Positions 1,180 to 64,000 of a stretch of 64,000 nucleotides of DNA are shown in pieces. The notes under the pieces are model-generated. The model worked only from the letters and a program-made list of their open reading frames with translations, did no database searches and was not told where the DNA came from. Positions within the stretch are counted from its first letter, which is position 1. Each line of letters starts with the position of its first letter. Source of the stretch: an uncultured Caldilineaceae bacterium (lineage in GTDB: Bacteria; Chloroflexota; Anaerolineae; Caldilineales; Caldilineaceae); contig OY282381.1 of assembly GCA_958295915.1 (NCBI GenBank), forward strand, positions 3,556,722-3,620,721. Direction: 5' to 3'. The position numbers and the translations under genes were made by a program.

Positions 1180-1487
1180 GACATGCGCAGGCGTTCGGTT
1201 CGGTGAAAAGGCTGCCGAAAATTTCGGTAAAGGTGAAAGTGGAAAGTTAGGAAACCCTCCACGATCACTCACCTGAAAACCGTCTGACACCTTACTATTC
1301 TCCTGTTTATAGTTGACACAGATCGACAATGACGGATTGCACAATCTGAAAATCGTTTGCCTACTCATGTTACGCAGTAGTTGACGAAGCGTGTAAAATA
1401 AGGTCAGGAGGTGAATCATGGGCTTCAAGCTCTTTAGATCTGTACACAACTGTCGTCTGAGTCGCTGATTTGAAGCGTTTCCGGTTG
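1180..1487. other. Intergenic stretch at the left edge of the AT-rich island
   Basis: No convincing gene. Base composition changes from GC-rich to AT-rich here. Positions 1366-1416 match (about 50 bases, few differences) the reverse complement of 62803-62863, upstream of the coiled-coil genes. A strong ribosome-binding-like AGGAGGTGA at 1406-1414 precedes an ATG at 1418 that opens only 16 codons (to 1468), too short to call a gene. A TTGACA at 1313-1318 has no good -10 partner. Confidence 0.5.
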
Positions 1488-9090: not shown

Positions 9091-11903
9091 AGTGCAAGCG
9101 TCAGGCGTTTGGTCTCCAGCACAGGACGCTGTTCATCATCCACCAACAATACAGGACCCACACAGGCAGGACATCCGTAGTGGCAGGCGCAGCCGCGGAT
9201 CAGGTCCGCGGCCCCAGCGATCAGGTCATCGTGGCGCTCGTACATCTGGGCGCTGAAGCCAATCCCGGCGGGGATGCGTTCATAAATATAGATGCGCGGC
9301 CCCCCCATCCCCTCGCGGATGACGGCGACGCCGATATCGCGCCGATCGCACATCAGATGCAGAGGGGCCAGATTGCCCAGCGCGTAGGCCAGCCCATCCA
9401 GGCCGGTGCGGGCGTGGGCGCCCGCCTCCAGGCGCTGATGGCAACGCCGACAGAGTAACATCAGATTGCTGAGCCGGTTGGCATGCCGGTCGTTTTCGTT
9501 CAAGCCCGGAATGTAGCCGAAGGCGCGGAATGGAATCAGATGATGCACATCGTGCTGGCGGCCGCACGTCTCTGGCGCGCCACATTCGACGCAGCGGTAG
9601 CCGTCCCTGGCCCGCGCTTTGGCCCGCTGCTCCTGCCAATTGGGGCCGTAGTCGTTGGGGGCATCCCGCCAGTCTCCTGCCTGCATCAGCGCAATCTGAG
9701 CCTCCGCGGTCACTTCCAGCCAGTAACCGGCGGTGTCCAGTGTGTTGGGTGGGTAGTCAAGGGGCAGAACGCCGAGATTCTCGTGGGTAAAACGCCGCAC
9801 CCGGCGGTACTGCGTTACCTGCGACGTCACCAGGATCTCGCCATAGCCCAACTGCGCGCCGCCGGCGACACGACTCTCCTGCACAGAAAGCGCCTGAATC
9901 TCCGTTTCCGCGCTGGCCTCTGTATAAAACTCCACATCTGCCGGCCACACCCACGCCAGATGCTCGTCCAAGTCTAGCCGTTCCACCAGGTAACTGCGGC
10001 CTTCGTGGATATAGACAGCGCCTTCATGCGCCAGAAATGGCGCGCTGGCGGCGTCGACTTCTCCTATGATTGTGAAAGGGCCATCCTTATTCTGATCATC
10101 AGGATAATCAGAATCTGTTTGCCGCCCCAGGCGTCTCGCCTGCCCAACTGACTCGGAACGATCGGCCGCTCCACCGGTCTGAATCACCACCGGATCGCCG
10201 CCAACGCTGCGCAGGCTAAACTGCCGGGCAGGGTAGCTGGCGCCGCTCCACAGGAAGCGGTCGCCGAAACGCTGCACGGCCCCCTCTTCAGCCAGCAGTT
10301 CGAGGACATCGGCGGTGAAAGGTGACTGGCCGAACATCTCCCCCTCCACAAACGGCAACTCAAAGGCGGCGCAGCGTATCTGATCCACCAGCAGCATCAG
10401 ATTGTCCGCATTGGCGAAGGCGTGCTCCGGCGAACGGTCCAGCAGAAACTGCGGATGATTGACGATAAACTGATCCAGCGCGCCCGCGGTTGCCACCAGC
10501 GCCGCCAGGGAGGTCTCCGTCGTGCGGCCGGCCCGGCCCCACTGCTGCCAGACGCCGGCGATCGTGCCCGGATAGCCGCAGATCAGCGCCGCCTCCAGCT
10601 GGCCGATGTCGATGCCCAACTCCAGCGCATTGGTAGCGACCACCCCGCGCACCGTCCCTGCCCGCAGACCCGCTTCGATCTGTCGCCGTTCCTGGGGCAG
10701 ATATCCGCCGCGATAGCCGCGAATGGCCATTTGGATTCTCTGTTCGGTCTTTGTCCTTTCCTTGTCGCGCCCCACAGTGGCGCGCAATACAACCTTTCTT
10801 TCTCCCATCCCCTCCCCGCTCTCTCCTTGAGCCCAGCCCTCACTGGGGAAATGGTTGAATGCGCCTCTGCTCGAGAGCGGCGCGAAAGGGAGGCGTCGAA
10901 GGCGTTCGCGTATGTAACTGAGAAGGAGTTCAACGGTGAGGCGGGCGCGGCCGAAGACGATGGTTTGCAGTCCGCCCAGCAGGAAGCGGACAGCCAATTC
11001 CTGGCTTTCCAACAGACTGCTGCGGCGCAGACCCCTGACCGGATCGTACAAAGGCGGCGCGTATAGAAGGATGTGCTTCTCGCCCTGTGGCGCGCCGTTG
11101 CGGTCGATGACCTGTACCGGCCGCTCCGTGAGGATCTCTGCCAACTGTTTGGGGTTGGCGATCGTTGCGCTGGTCAGCAGGAATTGGGGTCTGTTCGGGC
11201 TTTGCCCTTCGCGCCTTTGCGCTTTTGCGTCTCTGCGTTGTGTTCCGGGCGCAGCCTTCATGCCGTAATGGGCTGCCACCCGCCGCAGCCGGCGCAAGAC
11301 ATTGGCCACGTGGCTGCCGAAGACGCCGCGATAGCTATGCATCTCGTCGATGATGACGTAGCGCAAACCGGCGAGAAAACGCGCCCAGCCGCCGTGATAG
11401 GGCAGAATGGCAGCGTGAAGCATATCCGGGTTTGTGAGAACCAATCTGGCATTCTGGCGGATGGAGCGACGCTGGGCAGAAGGCGTGTCGCCGTCGTAGG
11501 CGGCGTACTGAAGACGCTCAGGATACTCCTGAGCCCAATCGCCGATGTCCGCCAACTGATCATGGGCCAGGGCTTTGGTAGGGAAGAGGTAGAGCGCTGT
11601 CGCATTCGCATCGTTGAGCAAGGCGTGAAGCGCCGGCAGCGTGTAGCAGAGTGTTTTGCCGCTGGCCGTGGGCGTCACGACGGCGATGTTGTGGCCGCCC
11701 AGGGCCAGGGCGATGGCCTCGGCCTGATGGCTATAGAGCTGTTGAATCCCCCGGCGATGCAGAGCGCTCGCCAGAGCTGGATGCAGACCTGCCGGTATGT
11801 CCACCAGGCAGCCGGCGCGAGCCGGCAACGTCTCCCAGGCTGTGACGTTGGCCATAAAGCCGCTGTCTCGGCGCAAGTCGGCGATGACATCTGCAATGCT
11901 CAT
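9063..11903 (-). CDS. MrfA/YprA-like DEAD/DEAH-box helicase with embedded HNH domain
   Basis: 946 residues from the ATG that overlaps the F420 reductase stop (TGATG). Superfamily 2 helicase: Q-like HQAEAI (59-64), Walker A TPTASGKT (K83), DEMH box (186-189), TSAT (about 244-247), GVVATNALELGIDIG, and QQWGRAGR motif VI. The C-terminal cysteines CACHYGCPAC (about 904) match the metal-binding end of the MrfA/YprA (DUF1998) family, which acts in DNA repair. About 760-820 is an HNH-like module: CVEC, DVHHLIPFR, NLMLLCRRCH. Three stretches look like translated dispersed repeats: 219-238, about 339-389 and about 581-607. They lie between conserved motifs, so the frame survives. Function as helicase is likely; nuclease activity is inferred. 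Confidence 0.88.
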   Translation of the reverse strand: MSIADVIADLRRDSGFMANVTAWETLPARAGCLVDIPAGLHPALASALHRRGIQQLYSHQAEAIALALGGHNIAVVTPTASGKTLCYTLPALHALLNDANATALYLFPTKALAHDQLADIGDWAQEYPERLQYAAYDGDTPSAQRRSIRQNARLVLTNPDMLHAAILPYHGGWARFLAGLRYVIIDEMHSYRGVFGSHVANVLRRLRRVAAHYGMKAAPGTQRRDAKAQRREGQSPNRPQFLLTSATIANPKQLAEILTERPVQVIDRNGAPQGEKHILLYAPPLYDPVRGLRRSSLLESQELAVRFLLGGLQTIVFGRARLTVELLLSYIRERLRRLPFAPLSSRGAFNHFPSEGWAQGESGEGMGERKVVLRATVGRDKERTKTEQRIQMAIRGYRGGYLPQERRQIEAGLRAGTVRGVVATNALELGIDIGQLEAALICGYPGTIAGVWQQWGRAGRTTETSLAALVATAGALDQFIVNHPQFLLDRSPEHAFANADNLMLLVDQIRCAAFELPFVEGEMFGQSPFTADVLELLAEEGAVQRFGDRFLWSGASYPARQFSLRSVGGDPVVIQTGGAADRSESVGQARRLGRQTDSDYPDDQNKDGPFTIIGEVDAASAPFLAHEGAVYIHEGRSYLVERLDLDEHLAWVWPADVEFYTEASAETEIQALSVQESRVAGGAQLGYGEILVTSQVTQYRRVRRFTHENLGVLPLDYPPNTLDTAGYWLEVTAEAQIALMQAGDWRDAPNDYGPNWQEQRAKARARDGYRCVECGAPETCGRQHDVHHLIPFRAFGYIPGLNENDRHANRLSNLMLLCRRCHQRLEAGAHARTGLDGLAYALGNLAPLHLMCDRRDIGVAVIREGMGGPRIYIYERIPAGIGFSAQMYERHDDLIAGAADLIRGCACHYGCPACVGPVLLVDDEQRPVLETKRLTLALLTAVASEQ
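10090..10150 (-). repeat. Family G repeat inside helicase coding sequence
   Basis: Contains TCAGGATAATCAGAATC and GGCGTCTCGCCTGCCCA. A second copy with both elements lies at 12634-12696, between genes. Here it is translated in frame as about 25 residues (SVGQARRLGRQTDSDYP and neighbours). Confidence 0.6.
10735..10885 (-). repeat. Families B and C palindromes inside helicase coding sequence
   Basis: 10861-10884 is a family B palindrome (starts GCGCCTCTGCTCGAGAG) with its conserved TTGAAT flank, and 10767-10785 is a family C palindrome (GCGCCCCACAGTGGCGCGC). Together they encode about 50 extra residues between the RERLRR and IRGYRGGYLP parts of the helicase C-terminal lobe. Confidence 0.65.
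11185..11255 (-). repeat. Family A-type repeat inside helicase coding sequence
   Basis: Minus-strand reading gives ACGCAGAGACGCAAAAGCGCAAAGGCGC-like sequence, translated as TQRRDAKAQRREGQ (helicase residues 221-234). It sits between the DEMH box and the SAT motif without breaking the frame. Confidence 0.65.
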
Positions 11904-20702: not shown

Positions 20703-20725
20703 GCGCCTCTCTCTAGCAGAGGCGC
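20703..20725. repeat. Family B palindrome in the sodN leader
   Basis: 23-bp palindrome GCGCCTCT-CTCTAGC-AGAGGCGC followed by ATTTAAC, the family's conserved flank. It would form a hairpin in the sodN transcript leader. Confidence 0.75.
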
Positions 20726-21471: not shown

Positions 21472-21876
21472 ATGTGGAAGCGGAACCCGCGCCTCTCTCG
21501 AGCAGAGGCGCATTCAACCCTTCCCCGTAGCGGCTGGCGGGAGATGGCGTTATGGCTGCTACGCAGGCGGCGGCTATTCCGGGTAACCGGGGAATCCATG
21601 ATGCCGACACTATGCGCCGGAGCGGTTGTGCTGTTGGATCCCTATGCCTACCGTAAGGGCGTAGTGCCCCAGGAGGACGAAATCGTTGTAGCGCGGCATC
21701 CCCGCCAGGCGGAACTGTGGATCATCAAGCGGGTGGCGGCGGTGATCGAAAGCGATACCGCGGCCATACGGCTTGTGCTGTCCAGCGACAACCGGGCAGC
21801 CGGCGCGGATAGCCGCGCCTTCGGAGCGGTTGCGGGCGACCTCGTCCTGGGGCGGGTGACCAGTCTCCTGCGCTGA
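21472..21876 (+). CDS. sodX: Nickel-type superoxide dismutase maturation protease
   Basis: 134 residues from ATG 21472. S26-type signal-peptidase-like serine protease that trims the SodN propeptide so that the nickel-binding histidine becomes N-terminal. The nucleophile is S42 in VTGESMMPTL and the general base K86 in ELWIIKRVAA; VVLLDPYAYR and DEIVVARHP are typical. The conserved protein begins at about M25 (ATG 21544). Residues 6-17 are encoded by a family B palindrome (21489-21511), inserted in frame between the ribosome-binding region and the body. Start is therefore either 21472 (GGGGCGG upstream) or 21544. Pairing with sodN supports the call. Confidence 0.88.
   Translation: MWKRNPRLSRAEAHSTLPRSGWREMALWLLRRRRLFRVTGESMMPTLCAGAVVLLDPYAYRKGVVPQEDEIVVARHPRQAELWIIKRVAAVIESDTAAIRLVLSSDNRAAGADSRAFGAVAGDLVLGRVTSLLR
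21489..21511. repeat. Family B palindrome inside the sodX 5' end
   Basis: GCGCCTCT-CTCGAGC-AGAGGCGC followed by ATTCAAC. Translated in frame as part of RLSRAEAHSTL if the 21472 start is used. Confidence 0.75.
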
Positions 21877-21946: not shown

Positions 21947-21969
21947 GCGCCTCTGCTCGAAAGAGGCGC
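21947..21969. repeat. Family B palindrome between sodX and the permease gene
   Basis: GCGCCTCT-GCTCGAA-AGAGGCGC followed by ATTCAAC. It lies in the convergent junction and could act as a bidirectional terminator hairpin. Confidence 0.75.
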
Positions 21970-37216: not shown

Positions 37217-37239
37217 GCGCCTCTGCTCGAAAGAGGCGC
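37217..37239. repeat. Family B palindrome
   Basis: GCGCCTCT-GCTCGAA-AGAGGCGC. Divergent intergenic region between the kinase and the adenine deaminase remnant. Confidence 0.75.
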
Positions 37240-62073: not shown

Positions 62074-62121
62074 GCGGAAAATGTTGCGAGGGTGCGTCTC
62101 AAGATGGGGATGATGAATTTT

Positions 62122-62206
62122 TAACGCAAAGACGCAAAGGCGCAAAGGCGCCAGGATTTTTTCGGGGGTTTCCTTGGGGCTTCGCGTCCTGGCGTCATTC
62201 GGGGGT
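62122..62206. repeat. Family A-type repeat
   Basis: TTAACGCAAAGACGCAAAGG, CGCAAAGGCGCCAGGATTTT, CTTCGCGTCCTGGCGTCATT. The arms pair imperfectly. Confidence 0.6.
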
Positions 62207-62288
62207 AGGCTGCGCTGTGCGGGTCTGTCCTCTGCGGGTTTGTGATCCTGGGCGTTCTGTCACGGTGTATCTGTGGGGCGCGTGTTGG

Positions 62289-62726
62289 CTAGGGCAACTG
62301 CGCCAGGAGGTCACGGAGCAGCGGGAACAGAATGCCTGCAATCCCGATGCCCATCATCCACTTGAGCGCTCTCTGTTCCGATTGGACGGCCTGCACAGTG
62401 ACGCGAACATCCGCCATCTCCCCTTGCAGCTCCGACTTGACGGCTGCGATATCCCCTTGCAGCTCCGACTTGACAGTTGCGATATCCGACCTGACGGCTG
62501 CGATATCCCCTTGCAGCTCCGACTTGACAGTTGCGATATCCCCTTGCAGCTCCGACTTGACGGCTGCTATATCCGACTTGACGGTCTGCAGATCGGCTTT
62601 GGTTGCCAGGTGTTCGTATGCGCCTTCGATGCGGGCGAGGCGTTCAGTTGGCATCGGGGCATTGCGTTGCGCTTCCAGCCGTGCGATGCGTTCTTCCAGG
62701 GAGGCGGGCGCCGCTGTCGTTGCCAT
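62289..62726 (-). CDS. Coiled-coil protein with C-terminal membrane helix, copy 1
   Basis: 145 residues; AGGAG 9 bases upstream. ASLEERIARLEAQRNA, then TERLARIEGAYEHLATKADLQTVK, then four 11-residue repeats of the form DIA(A/T)VKSELQG interrupted by one 7-residue unit DIAAVRS, then VRVTVQAVQSEQRALKWMMGIGIAGILFPLLRDLLAQLP with one membrane helix at the end. The repeats should form a long coiled coil on the membrane surface. It resembles DUF1640-type coiled-coil proteins, whose function is unknown. Two further copies lie upstream. Confidence 0.8.
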   Translation of the reverse strand: MATTAAPASLEERIARLEAQRNAPMPTERLARIEGAYEHLATKADLQTVKSDIAAVKSELQGDIATVKSELQGDIAAVRSDIATVKSELQGDIAAVKSELQGEMADVRVTVQAVQSEQRALKWMMGIGIAGILFPLLRDLLAQLP

Positions 62727-62766
62727 AGGTTTAGTCTCCTGACCGGTCAGATGAGGAGGTTGACTT

Positions 62767-62789
62767 GCGCCTCTGCTCGGAAGAGGCGC
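62767..62789. repeat. Family B palindrome, upstream of coiled-coil copy 1
   Basis: GCGCCTCT-GCTCGGA-AGAGGCGC. The same element stands at 63636-63658 before copy 2. The perfect palindrome CTGACCGGTCAG lies between it and the start codon (62738-62749). Confidence 0.7.
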
Positions 62790-62802
62790 TGTAGAAGTCG
62801 AT

Positions 62803-62863
62803 CTTTCACATCCTGCCCTTATTCTCTTATTCTACCCGCTTTGTCAACTACTGCGTAACCATG
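62803..62863 (-). promoter_or_regulatory. Promoter-like module, family J
   Basis: Minus strand reads TTACGCAGTAGTTGACAAAG, CGGGTAGAATAAGAGAATAA, GGGCAGGATGTGAAAG. TTGACA followed by 17 bases and GAATAA could be a promoter for coiled-coil copy 1. The module recurs at 63672-63732 and, with few changes, at 1366-1416 before the NTPase genes. Confidence 0.5.
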
Positions 62864-62960
62864 AATACGGAATGGGTGCGTCTCAAGATGGGGATGAAGT
62901 CCTCTGCGGGTTTGTGATCCTGGGCGTTCTGTCACGGTGTATCTGTGGGGCGCGTGTTGG

Positions 62961-63596
62961 CTAGGGCAACTGCGCCAGGAGGTCACGGAGCAGCGGGAAC
63001 AGAATGCCTGCAATCCCGATGCCCATCATCCACTTGAGCGCTCTCTGTTCCGATTGGACGGCCTGCACAGTGACGCGAACATCCGCCATATCCCCTTGTA
63101 GCTCCGATTTGACGGCTGCGATATCCCCTTGTAGATCCGACTTGACGGCTGCGATATCCCCTTGCAGCTCCGACTTGACGGCTGCGATATCCCCTTGCAG
63201 CTCCGACTTGACGGCTGCGATATCCCCTTGCAGCTCCGACTTGACGGCTGCTATCTCTCCTTGCAGATCCGACTTGACGGCTGCGATATCCCCTTGCAGC
63301 TCCGACTTGACAGTTGCGATATCCCCTTGCAGCTCCGACTTGACAGTTGCGATATCCCCTTGCAGCTCCGACTTGACAGTTGCGATATCCGACCTGACGG
63401 TTGCGATATCCCCTTGTAGATCCGACTTGACGGTTGCTATATCCGCCTTGACGGTCTGCAGATCGGCTTTGGTTGCCAGGTGTTCGTATGCGCCTTCGAT
63501 GCGGGCGAGGCGTTCAGTGGGCATCGGGGCGTTGCGTTGCGCTTCCAGCCGTGCGATGCGTTCTTCCAGGGAGGCGGGCGCCGCTGTCGTTGCCAT
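62961..63596 (-). CDS. Coiled-coil protein with C-terminal membrane helix, copy 2
   Basis: 211 residues. N- and C-terminal parts are practically identical to copy 1, but it has ten 11-residue repeats (DIA(A/T)VKS(E/D)LQG) and one 7-residue unit DIATVRS. The 66 extra residues equal six repeats, so the copies differ by gain or loss of whole 33-bp units. The membrane helix MMGIGIAGILFPLLRDLL is kept. Same likely role as copy 1, with a longer rod. Confidence 0.8.
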   Translation of the reverse strand: MATTAAPASLEERIARLEAQRNAPMPTERLARIEGAYEHLATKADLQTVKADIATVKSDLQGDIATVRSDIATVKSELQGDIATVKSELQGDIATVKSELQGDIAAVKSDLQGEIAAVKSELQGDIAAVKSELQGDIAAVKSELQGDIAAVKSDLQGDIAAVKSELQGDMADVRVTVQAVQSEQRALKWMMGIGIAGILFPLLRDLLAQLP

Positions 63597-63635
63597 AGGT
63601 TTAGTCTCCTGACCGGTCAGAGAGGAGGTTGACTT

Positions 63636-63658
63636 GCGCCTCTGCTCGGAAGAGGCGC
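63636..63658. repeat. Family B palindrome, upstream of coiled-coil copy 2
   Basis: GCGCCTCT-GCTCGGA-AGAGGCGC, as at 62767-62789. Confidence 0.7.
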
Positions 63659-63828
63659 TGTAGAAGTCGATCTTTCACATCCTGCCCTTATTCTCTTATT
63701 CTACCTGCTTTGTCAACTACTGCGTAACCATGAATACGAATAGGTGCGTCTCAAGATGGGGATGAAGTCCTCTGCGGGTTTGTGATCCTGGGCGTTCTGT
63801 CACGGTGTATCTGTGGGGCGCGTGTTGG

Positions 63829-64000
63829 CTAGGGCAACTGCGCCAGGAGGTCACGGAGCAGCGGGAACAGAATGCCTGCAATCCCGATGCCCATCATCCA
63901 CTTGAGCGCTCTCTGTTCCGATTGGACGGCCTGCACAGTGACGCGAACATCCGCCATCTCCCCTTGTAGCTCCGACTTGACGGCTACGATATCCCCTTGC
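63829..64000 (-). CDS. Coiled-coil protein, copy 3, cut by window end
   Basis: The stop lies at 63829-63831 and the C-terminal 56 or so codons are visible, with the membrane helix and DMADVRV-type end shared with copies 1 and 2. The start lies beyond the window, so the repeat number is unknown. Confidence 0.75.
   Translation of the reverse strand, partial: QGDIVAVKSELQGEMADVRVTVQAVQSEQRALKWMMGIGIAGILFPLLRDLLAQLP

Follow-up and report, generated by a model that had tools for sequence, protein, structure and literature searches.

At the high-coordinate end of the window, i.e. the whole 64,000-nucleotide stretch analysed (G000:C1:3556722-3620721 of a single-contig genome of 5,064,531 bp), genes for the same repeat-rich membrane protein stand in tandem and differ widely in length, which raises the question of what multiplied these genes and what alters the size of their products. 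The array consists of five minus-strand units (G000 3619013-3622482), instead of the three described in the initial annotation, and the window covers the first 2.3 of them (Table 1). Reading of the whole genome gives proteins of 145, 211, 156, 145, and 185 residues for units 1 to 5, all built alike: a head of 47 residues, the last of them ATKADLQ, is followed by a rod and then by a tail of 25 residues that starts at LKW. The respective rods measure 73, 139, 84, 73, and 113 residues, each fitting 11a+7b+8. The four and ten 11-residue repeats first counted in units 1 and 2 were found again, and the third unit has five; in place of the single 7-residue unit assigned to each gene, two are interspersed in each rod and one lies in the neck (b=3 in units 1-3). 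The intergenic spacers are of 237, 235, 236, and 236 bp when the stop codon is counted in the spacer, and every difference in unit length therefore sits in the rod. With the rod set aside, units 2-5 share 98.5-99.8% identity, unit 1 being 92-93% identical to the others in an alignment that takes in downstream sequence where unit 1 differs. With ends so similar and rods ranging from 73 to 139 residues, the repeat number must therefore change faster than point mutations accumulate. The tandem repeats, whose 33-bp arrays score up to 508 in Tandem Repeats Finder, are real and recent, as had been proposed, and the single-contig genome speaks against a simple collapsed assembly, although the repeat numbers may contain errors.

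Table 1. Positions of the array units and their associated elements within the window
Feature	Position	Strand	Remark
Array unit 1 gene	62289..62726	-	145 aa; four 11-mers and three 7-mers in the rod, between head and tail anchor
Unit 1 rod-coding repeats, 73 residues	62367..62585	-	coordinates computed from segmentation
Array unit 2 gene	62961..63596	-	211 aa; ten 11-mers and three 7-mers in the rod; PF07798 above cut-off
Unit 2 rod-coding repeats, 139 residues	63039..63455	-	coordinates computed from segmentation
Array unit 3 gene, truncated by window end	63829..64000	-	whole gene 156 aa, five 11-mers, G000 3620553-3621020 without stop codon
Spacer between units 2 and 1 (unit 1 leader and unit 2 3' part)	62727..62960	-	
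Spacer between units 3 and 2	63597..63828	-	
Altered cassette left end (ATGGTTACGCAGTAGTTGACAAAG) upstream of unit 1	62839..62862	-	
Altered cassette left end upstream of unit 2	63708..63731	-	
Junction repeat GGTGCGTCTCAAGATGGGGATGA, low-coordinate array edge	62091..62113	+	read from sequence
Junction repeat GGTGCGTCTCAAGATGGGGATGA between units 1 and 2	62875..62897	+	read from sequence
Junction repeat GGTGCGTCTCAAGATGGGGATGA between units 2 and 3	63743..63765	+	read from sequence
Palindrome in unit 1 leader, copy of dispersed REP-like repeat	62767..62789	-	
Same REP-like palindrome in unit 2 leader	63636..63658	-	

With regard to the product, the idea of a membrane coiled-coil rod of varying length is supported. 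The prediction is of a coiled-coil stalk that continues into a membrane anchor at the C-terminus: the AlphaFold2 model is a single helix spanning residues 27-142 (mean pLDDT 87, pTM 0.42), and a hydropathy peak at residues 124-142 (Kyte-Doolittle mean 1.68) agrees with it. No hydrophobic stretch was detected at the N-terminus, the 19-residue segments starting at residues 1-80 reaching a maximal mean of 0.35; the protein is therefore more likely tail-anchored, with its rod in the cytoplasm, and the surface protein suggested by the initial annotation is left unsupported. As read from the units, hydrophobic residues are spaced 4, 4, 3 in the 11-mer and 4, 3 in the 7-mer, so that, judging from coiled-coil geometry, either unit would continue the hydrophobic seam and the rod could be shortened or lengthened without breaking the fold. 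The rods may be assembled as coiled coils, a role as scaffold being a tentative suggestion. A coiled coil that leads to a membrane anchor at the C-terminus is likewise found in the CCDC90-like/DUF1640 proteins (Pfam PF07798; MCUR1, CCDC90B, yeast Put6/Put7), and the comparison with DUF1640 recommended at the outset holds for part of the family: the curated cut-off of 33.5 bits is exceeded by unit 2 (43.8), unit 5 (40.2), and the two genus relatives L123 (44.4) and L124 (50.4), whereas unit 1 (29.9) stays below it and no match was listed for L018 and L021, the two shortest copies scanned. In contrast to that family, the rod is made here of near-identical 11/7 units and exists in many copies per genome. 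Since other coiled-coil profiles match too, the PF07798 match is weak evidence of family membership. Solved structures included no convincing relative, 6h9l, which we take to be a prokaryotic CCDC90 homologue, appearing at E 0.18, and phage records gave weak matches only, over the coiled coil.

DNA and protein searches recovered 18 copies with the shared head in the one chromosome, five of them in the array and a further two at 939902-941544, the rest being single; the head search returns 17 heads, the frameshifted L019 being the 18th copy. Reading frames are intact in all of them except L019 and L020, and the rods of the 16 intact copies span 30-174 residues. The rods of 17 segmented copies fit 11a+7b+8; in L017, the real unit is a new one of 17 residues, and part of the head is merged into the repeat. 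Three divergent members (L023, L024, and L025) are additionally present in the genome. They were left out of a copy tree, which was itself discarded because it positioned L013 and array unit 1, with their differing 3' flanks, unreliably. Upstream of L010 and L011 lies the same host-like DNA, and the two also agree in the repeats joined to them; recombination therefore surely made some of the copies.

The flanks of the dispersed copies, once aligned, reveal that these start with TCATGTTACGCAGTAGTTGACAAAGC and finish with TGCGTAACATGA, and that they sit in cassettes of about 640-740 bp (638-743 bp) delimited by 14-bp terminal inverted repeats (TIRs; ACTCATGTTACGCA). Their interior is composed of a leader, the rod gene, and a 3' part, a passenger gene being thus present and a transposase absent. 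A search for the left end with up to three mismatches hit 13 sites, against none for the reversed-pattern control, and the right-end search hit seven, again against none. Boundaries on both sides were found for eight elements: the gene-bearing L014, L015, L016, L018, L019, and L020, the gene-less L026, and L103 with transposase remains. With ACTCATGTTACGCA as ends, exact 5-bp target duplications flank six of these eight elements, including four of the six gene-bearing ones, compared to 0/56 swapped pairs. The duplication is imperfect in L019 (4/5 bases) and absent from L020 (2/5 bases), and the left TIR of L014 is damaged, with 6/14 positions matching. The outward shift of the boundary by 2 bp was made with knowledge of the flanks, and the intact elements later agreed with it; in a scan of 567 boundary settings, 5 bp with ends 2 bp out ranks at the top, tied only with two 4-bp subsets thereof. 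A 9-bp duplication, the first fit (55/72 bases), was replaced by this setting. The TIR pattern had no match in the named genomes and, among the 17 genomes of the genus, was found in the own genome and as one left-end relic in G016, nowhere else. That the dispersed copies form a non-autonomous mobile cassette with a CCDC90/DUF1640-type coiled-coil passenger, and hence that the genes are the cargo of a transposon-derived element dispersed round the chromosome, is well supported and had been overlooked by the initial annotation.

Two elements deserve separate mention. L026 (G000 1279759-1280025) is a gene-less cassette of 267 bp that has the two ends as well as an exact 5-bp duplication, which makes it a genuine miniature element within this family. 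In L017, a TnpB-like gene (IS200/IS605 type, judged by eye) lies at about 1079-2561 (G000 3086578-3088060), within the cassette left end, between TATATACTTAACTGCACAAG and TTGTGCAGTCAAGTATATAATTCCC.

As to the source of such ends, solo left ends at 3390944, 1969842, and 3558086 (window 1365) lead into short frames, one of which, MDFKLSDLYSDYLLSS, presumably resembles a transposase N-terminus. The solo left end of the window (1365-1390) has one mismatch and precedes a short frame that has a ribosome-binding-like site, the right-end searches giving no right end for it. The 24-residue relic peptide matched no family and no plasmid, and among 61 genomes only itself and one chance-level sequence. 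A transposase consensus used as a query matched NCBIfam NF049921, of the IS701 family, and a decayed transposase of this type (IS701_2) is present at G000 4418272-4419003 (profile search match 4418278-4418952). This relic has an exact left TIR, 11/14 positions of the right TIR, and the duplication ATATG, and its main pieces are 46-64% identical to the intact transposase of L160. No intact transposase of NF049921 type was found in the own genome, and mobility today is therefore unlikely. Likewise, NF049921 was above cut-off in 0/17 genus genomes, and six NF049921 fragment loci from genomes of the same genus bear no TIR of the cassette type.

At the level of the class, 26/396 genomes match NF049921 at E<=1e-40, 16 of them above cut-off, and intact elements found there have ends differing from those of the cassette at one or few bases. 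Among 16 class loci checked, ACTCACGTTACGCA-like TIRs stand at both ends in four (L146, L147, L160, and L161) and at the left only in L143; six loci (L135, L136, L137, L141, L144, and L145) have ends of the TAGGACTTwCGC type instead, and for the other five no matching ends were found, in some because no frame was detected or another one was taken. L147, L160, and L161 are intact elements with exact 5-bp duplications, L147 and L161 being copies in one genome, and L146 starts at a contig edge, without left flank.

The units of the window itself depart from this pattern. Their left end, ATGGTTACGCAG, has three mismatches to the TIR pattern and they have no right TIR, so they are derived, tandem-amplified copies rather than bounded elements, and it is their homology to the dispersed copies that points to a mobile origin for them too. 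In unit 1, the cassette sequence breaks off near CCTACCCCCGAAT and gives way to ACGCAAAG-type repeats. Repeats of the ACGCAAAGACGCAAAG type adjoin derived copies, at window 62120-62190 and in the flanks of L010, L011, and L013, and the recombination by which these copies spread perhaps took place there. Besides, the palindrome GCGCCTCT-N7-AGAGGCGC, REP-like and dispersed in the genome, occurs seven times in the window compared to 0.05 expected, the copies away from the array lying at 10861-10883, 20703-20725, 21489-21511, 21947-21969, and 37217-37239. A riboswitch or attenuator in the leader was considered and rejected, the hairpin being barely stabler than shuffled sequences (z -1.32) and being itself a copy of this palindrome; an Rfam search of the window gave nothing at gathering thresholds.

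Outside the own genome, relatives are confined and divergent. The full protein matches in 16/17 genus genomes, the own one included, the others having one to six divergent matches each, and apparent orthologues with the head MTMATESERIARIEGAYEHLATKAD, present in seven genus genomes, measure 128-186 aa; rod length therefore varies between species too. At E<=1e-5, the head is detected in 10/396 class genomes, all of the same genus: 17 heads of the cassette type are in the own genome, and of the 395 other genomes nine (same genus) have divergent ones only, covering part of the head at 54-90% identity, and 386 have none. In G010, of the same genus, four short genes follow each other in a run (L041, 443-1680), with a ERLARLEGAYEHLATKAD-type head and nearly no rod. 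Named relatives of the protein belong to uncultured Caldilineaceae at 11/12 loci, the other being an Elusimicrobia contig, and the host is for this reason assigned to the Caldilineaceae; some of these Caldilineaceae bins presumably come from sponges. In the accessible literature, mostly without subscription journals, no paper matching was found on sponge Chloroflexota or on tandem-repeat passenger genes in miniature elements.

How these copies arose can be read in several ways. The tandem arrangement in the window, together with the upstream DNA and joined repeats common to L010 and L011, would suit a plain expansion of the gene family in which duplication and gene conversion, but not transposition, spread the copies; such a process is nevertheless very unlikely in the light of the exact target duplications of six of the eight bounded elements, never seen in the 56 controls, and of transposase-type TIRs common to the transposase relic. 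Very probably, the family is instead a mobile insertion cassette, namely a non-autonomous derivative of the ISAba11/IS701_2 type in which a chromosomal CCDC90-like gene replaces the transposase. A surface protein variable in length or phase, whose diversity would serve its contacts with a host or with phages, appears the most improbable reading: the lack of a signal peptide-like stretch, the C-terminal anchor, and a repeat sequence that is conserved and not diversified all argue against it, even though rod length differs between near-identical copies and between the orthologues of the seven genus genomes. Moreover, the repeat changes are in frame and therefore allow no on/off switching, and the similarly built Bdr proteins are associated with the inner membrane, their function being unknown, according to the available part of PMC10016077.

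It could also be that the gene is a selfish cargo devoid of cell function, with repeats drifting neutrally. Over 120 pairs of the 16 copies (L019, L020, L023, L024, and L025 being set aside), dN/dS amounts to 0.29 for the head, 0.63 for the tail, and 0.41 for both together; the tail value, indicating weak constraint, and the frameshifts in two of the 18 copies would fit such a cargo. However, the other 16 frames are intact while the leaders and 3' parts of six cassettes bear indels of 1, 3, 8, 10, 13, and 28 bp, the gene is kept by the genus relatives, and variant codons number 16 nonsynonymous to 13 synonymous, where 2.54:1 would be expected (p 0.04, one-sided, with shared descent ignored and copies that are non-independent). 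Constraint on the protein is thus likely but modest, and a purely selfish cargo rather doubtful.

For the mobile insertion cassette, we infer the following order of events. An insertion sequence with ACTCATGTTACGCA ends would have been active in the lineage, and a derivative made of the left end, leader, rod gene, and right end would have been mobilised in trans, inserting at nine or more places with 5-bp duplications. The insertion sequence would then have decayed, with a single relic and some solo left ends as its remains, while one derived copy may have lost its intact ends, joined other dispersed repeats, and been amplified into the five-unit array. In-frame gain and loss of 33-bp and 21-bp units, by slippage or unequal crossing-over, would finally outpace point mutations. 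The product would most likely be a membrane rod anchored by its tail and lying on the cytoplasmic side, serving the cell as a spacer or scaffold.

Several known systems share part of these features. With ISAba11/NF049921 (transpos_IS701_2) elements, the family has in common ends of the ACTCAyGTTACGCA type, a relic transposase in the same genome, and 5-bp duplications, a 5-bp repeat being characteristic of ISAba11 in the accessible text of PMC7885321; in contrast to them, the cassette has no transposase. Classic IS701 differs by its 4-bp duplications, as stated in the part available of PMC2266710. In the accessible section of PMC5444012, elements of IS type that carry a passenger gene are called mobile insertion cassettes. 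As in such cassettes and in IS-derived MITEs, IS-type TIRs and target duplications surround a passenger gene with no internal transposase, these TIRs being found in the dispersed copies, whose ends are common to the NF049921 relic, and not in the array units of the window. Unlike there, the passenger is a coiled-coil membrane protein variable in repeat length, and part of the family has multiplied as a tandem array without intact ends.

Repeats in many paralogues, membrane association, and repeat numbers shifting between near-identical genes are also known from the Bdr proteins of Borrelia, whose repeat we take to be of 11 residues. The plasmid records matching the protein are from Borrelia or Borreliella in 113 cases out of 123, with tblastn E-values down to 3e-29 for records annotated Bdr. 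The best-scoring of these matches begin at query residue 52, after the head, and among the matches listed a few reach residue 8, at 30-34% identity; since the best ones fall in the repeats, they do not demonstrate common ancestry. The matched Bdr records are, besides, plasmids and not an IS cassette. In the available part of PMC3303823, bdrT is described with about nine repeats in one strain versus six in another, in orthologues otherwise 99.4% identical, and the turnover of Bdr repeats would, by analogy, be the closest working parallel to the rods described here.

The transposon could have supplied the copies and repeat turnover the lengths, giving 16 intact membrane rods graded in 11- and 7-residue steps; that their mixture sets membrane spacing is conceivable, if distinctly unlikely. 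The family links two things that are usually separate, a gene-multiplying insertion-sequence cassette and an in-frame repeat tract altering the length of the product. Its 16 intact copies in one chromosome constitute a natural experiment on the rate at which a coiled-coil rod lengthens or shortens, and provide a chromosomal counterpart, outside pathogens, to the Borrelia Bdr proteins.
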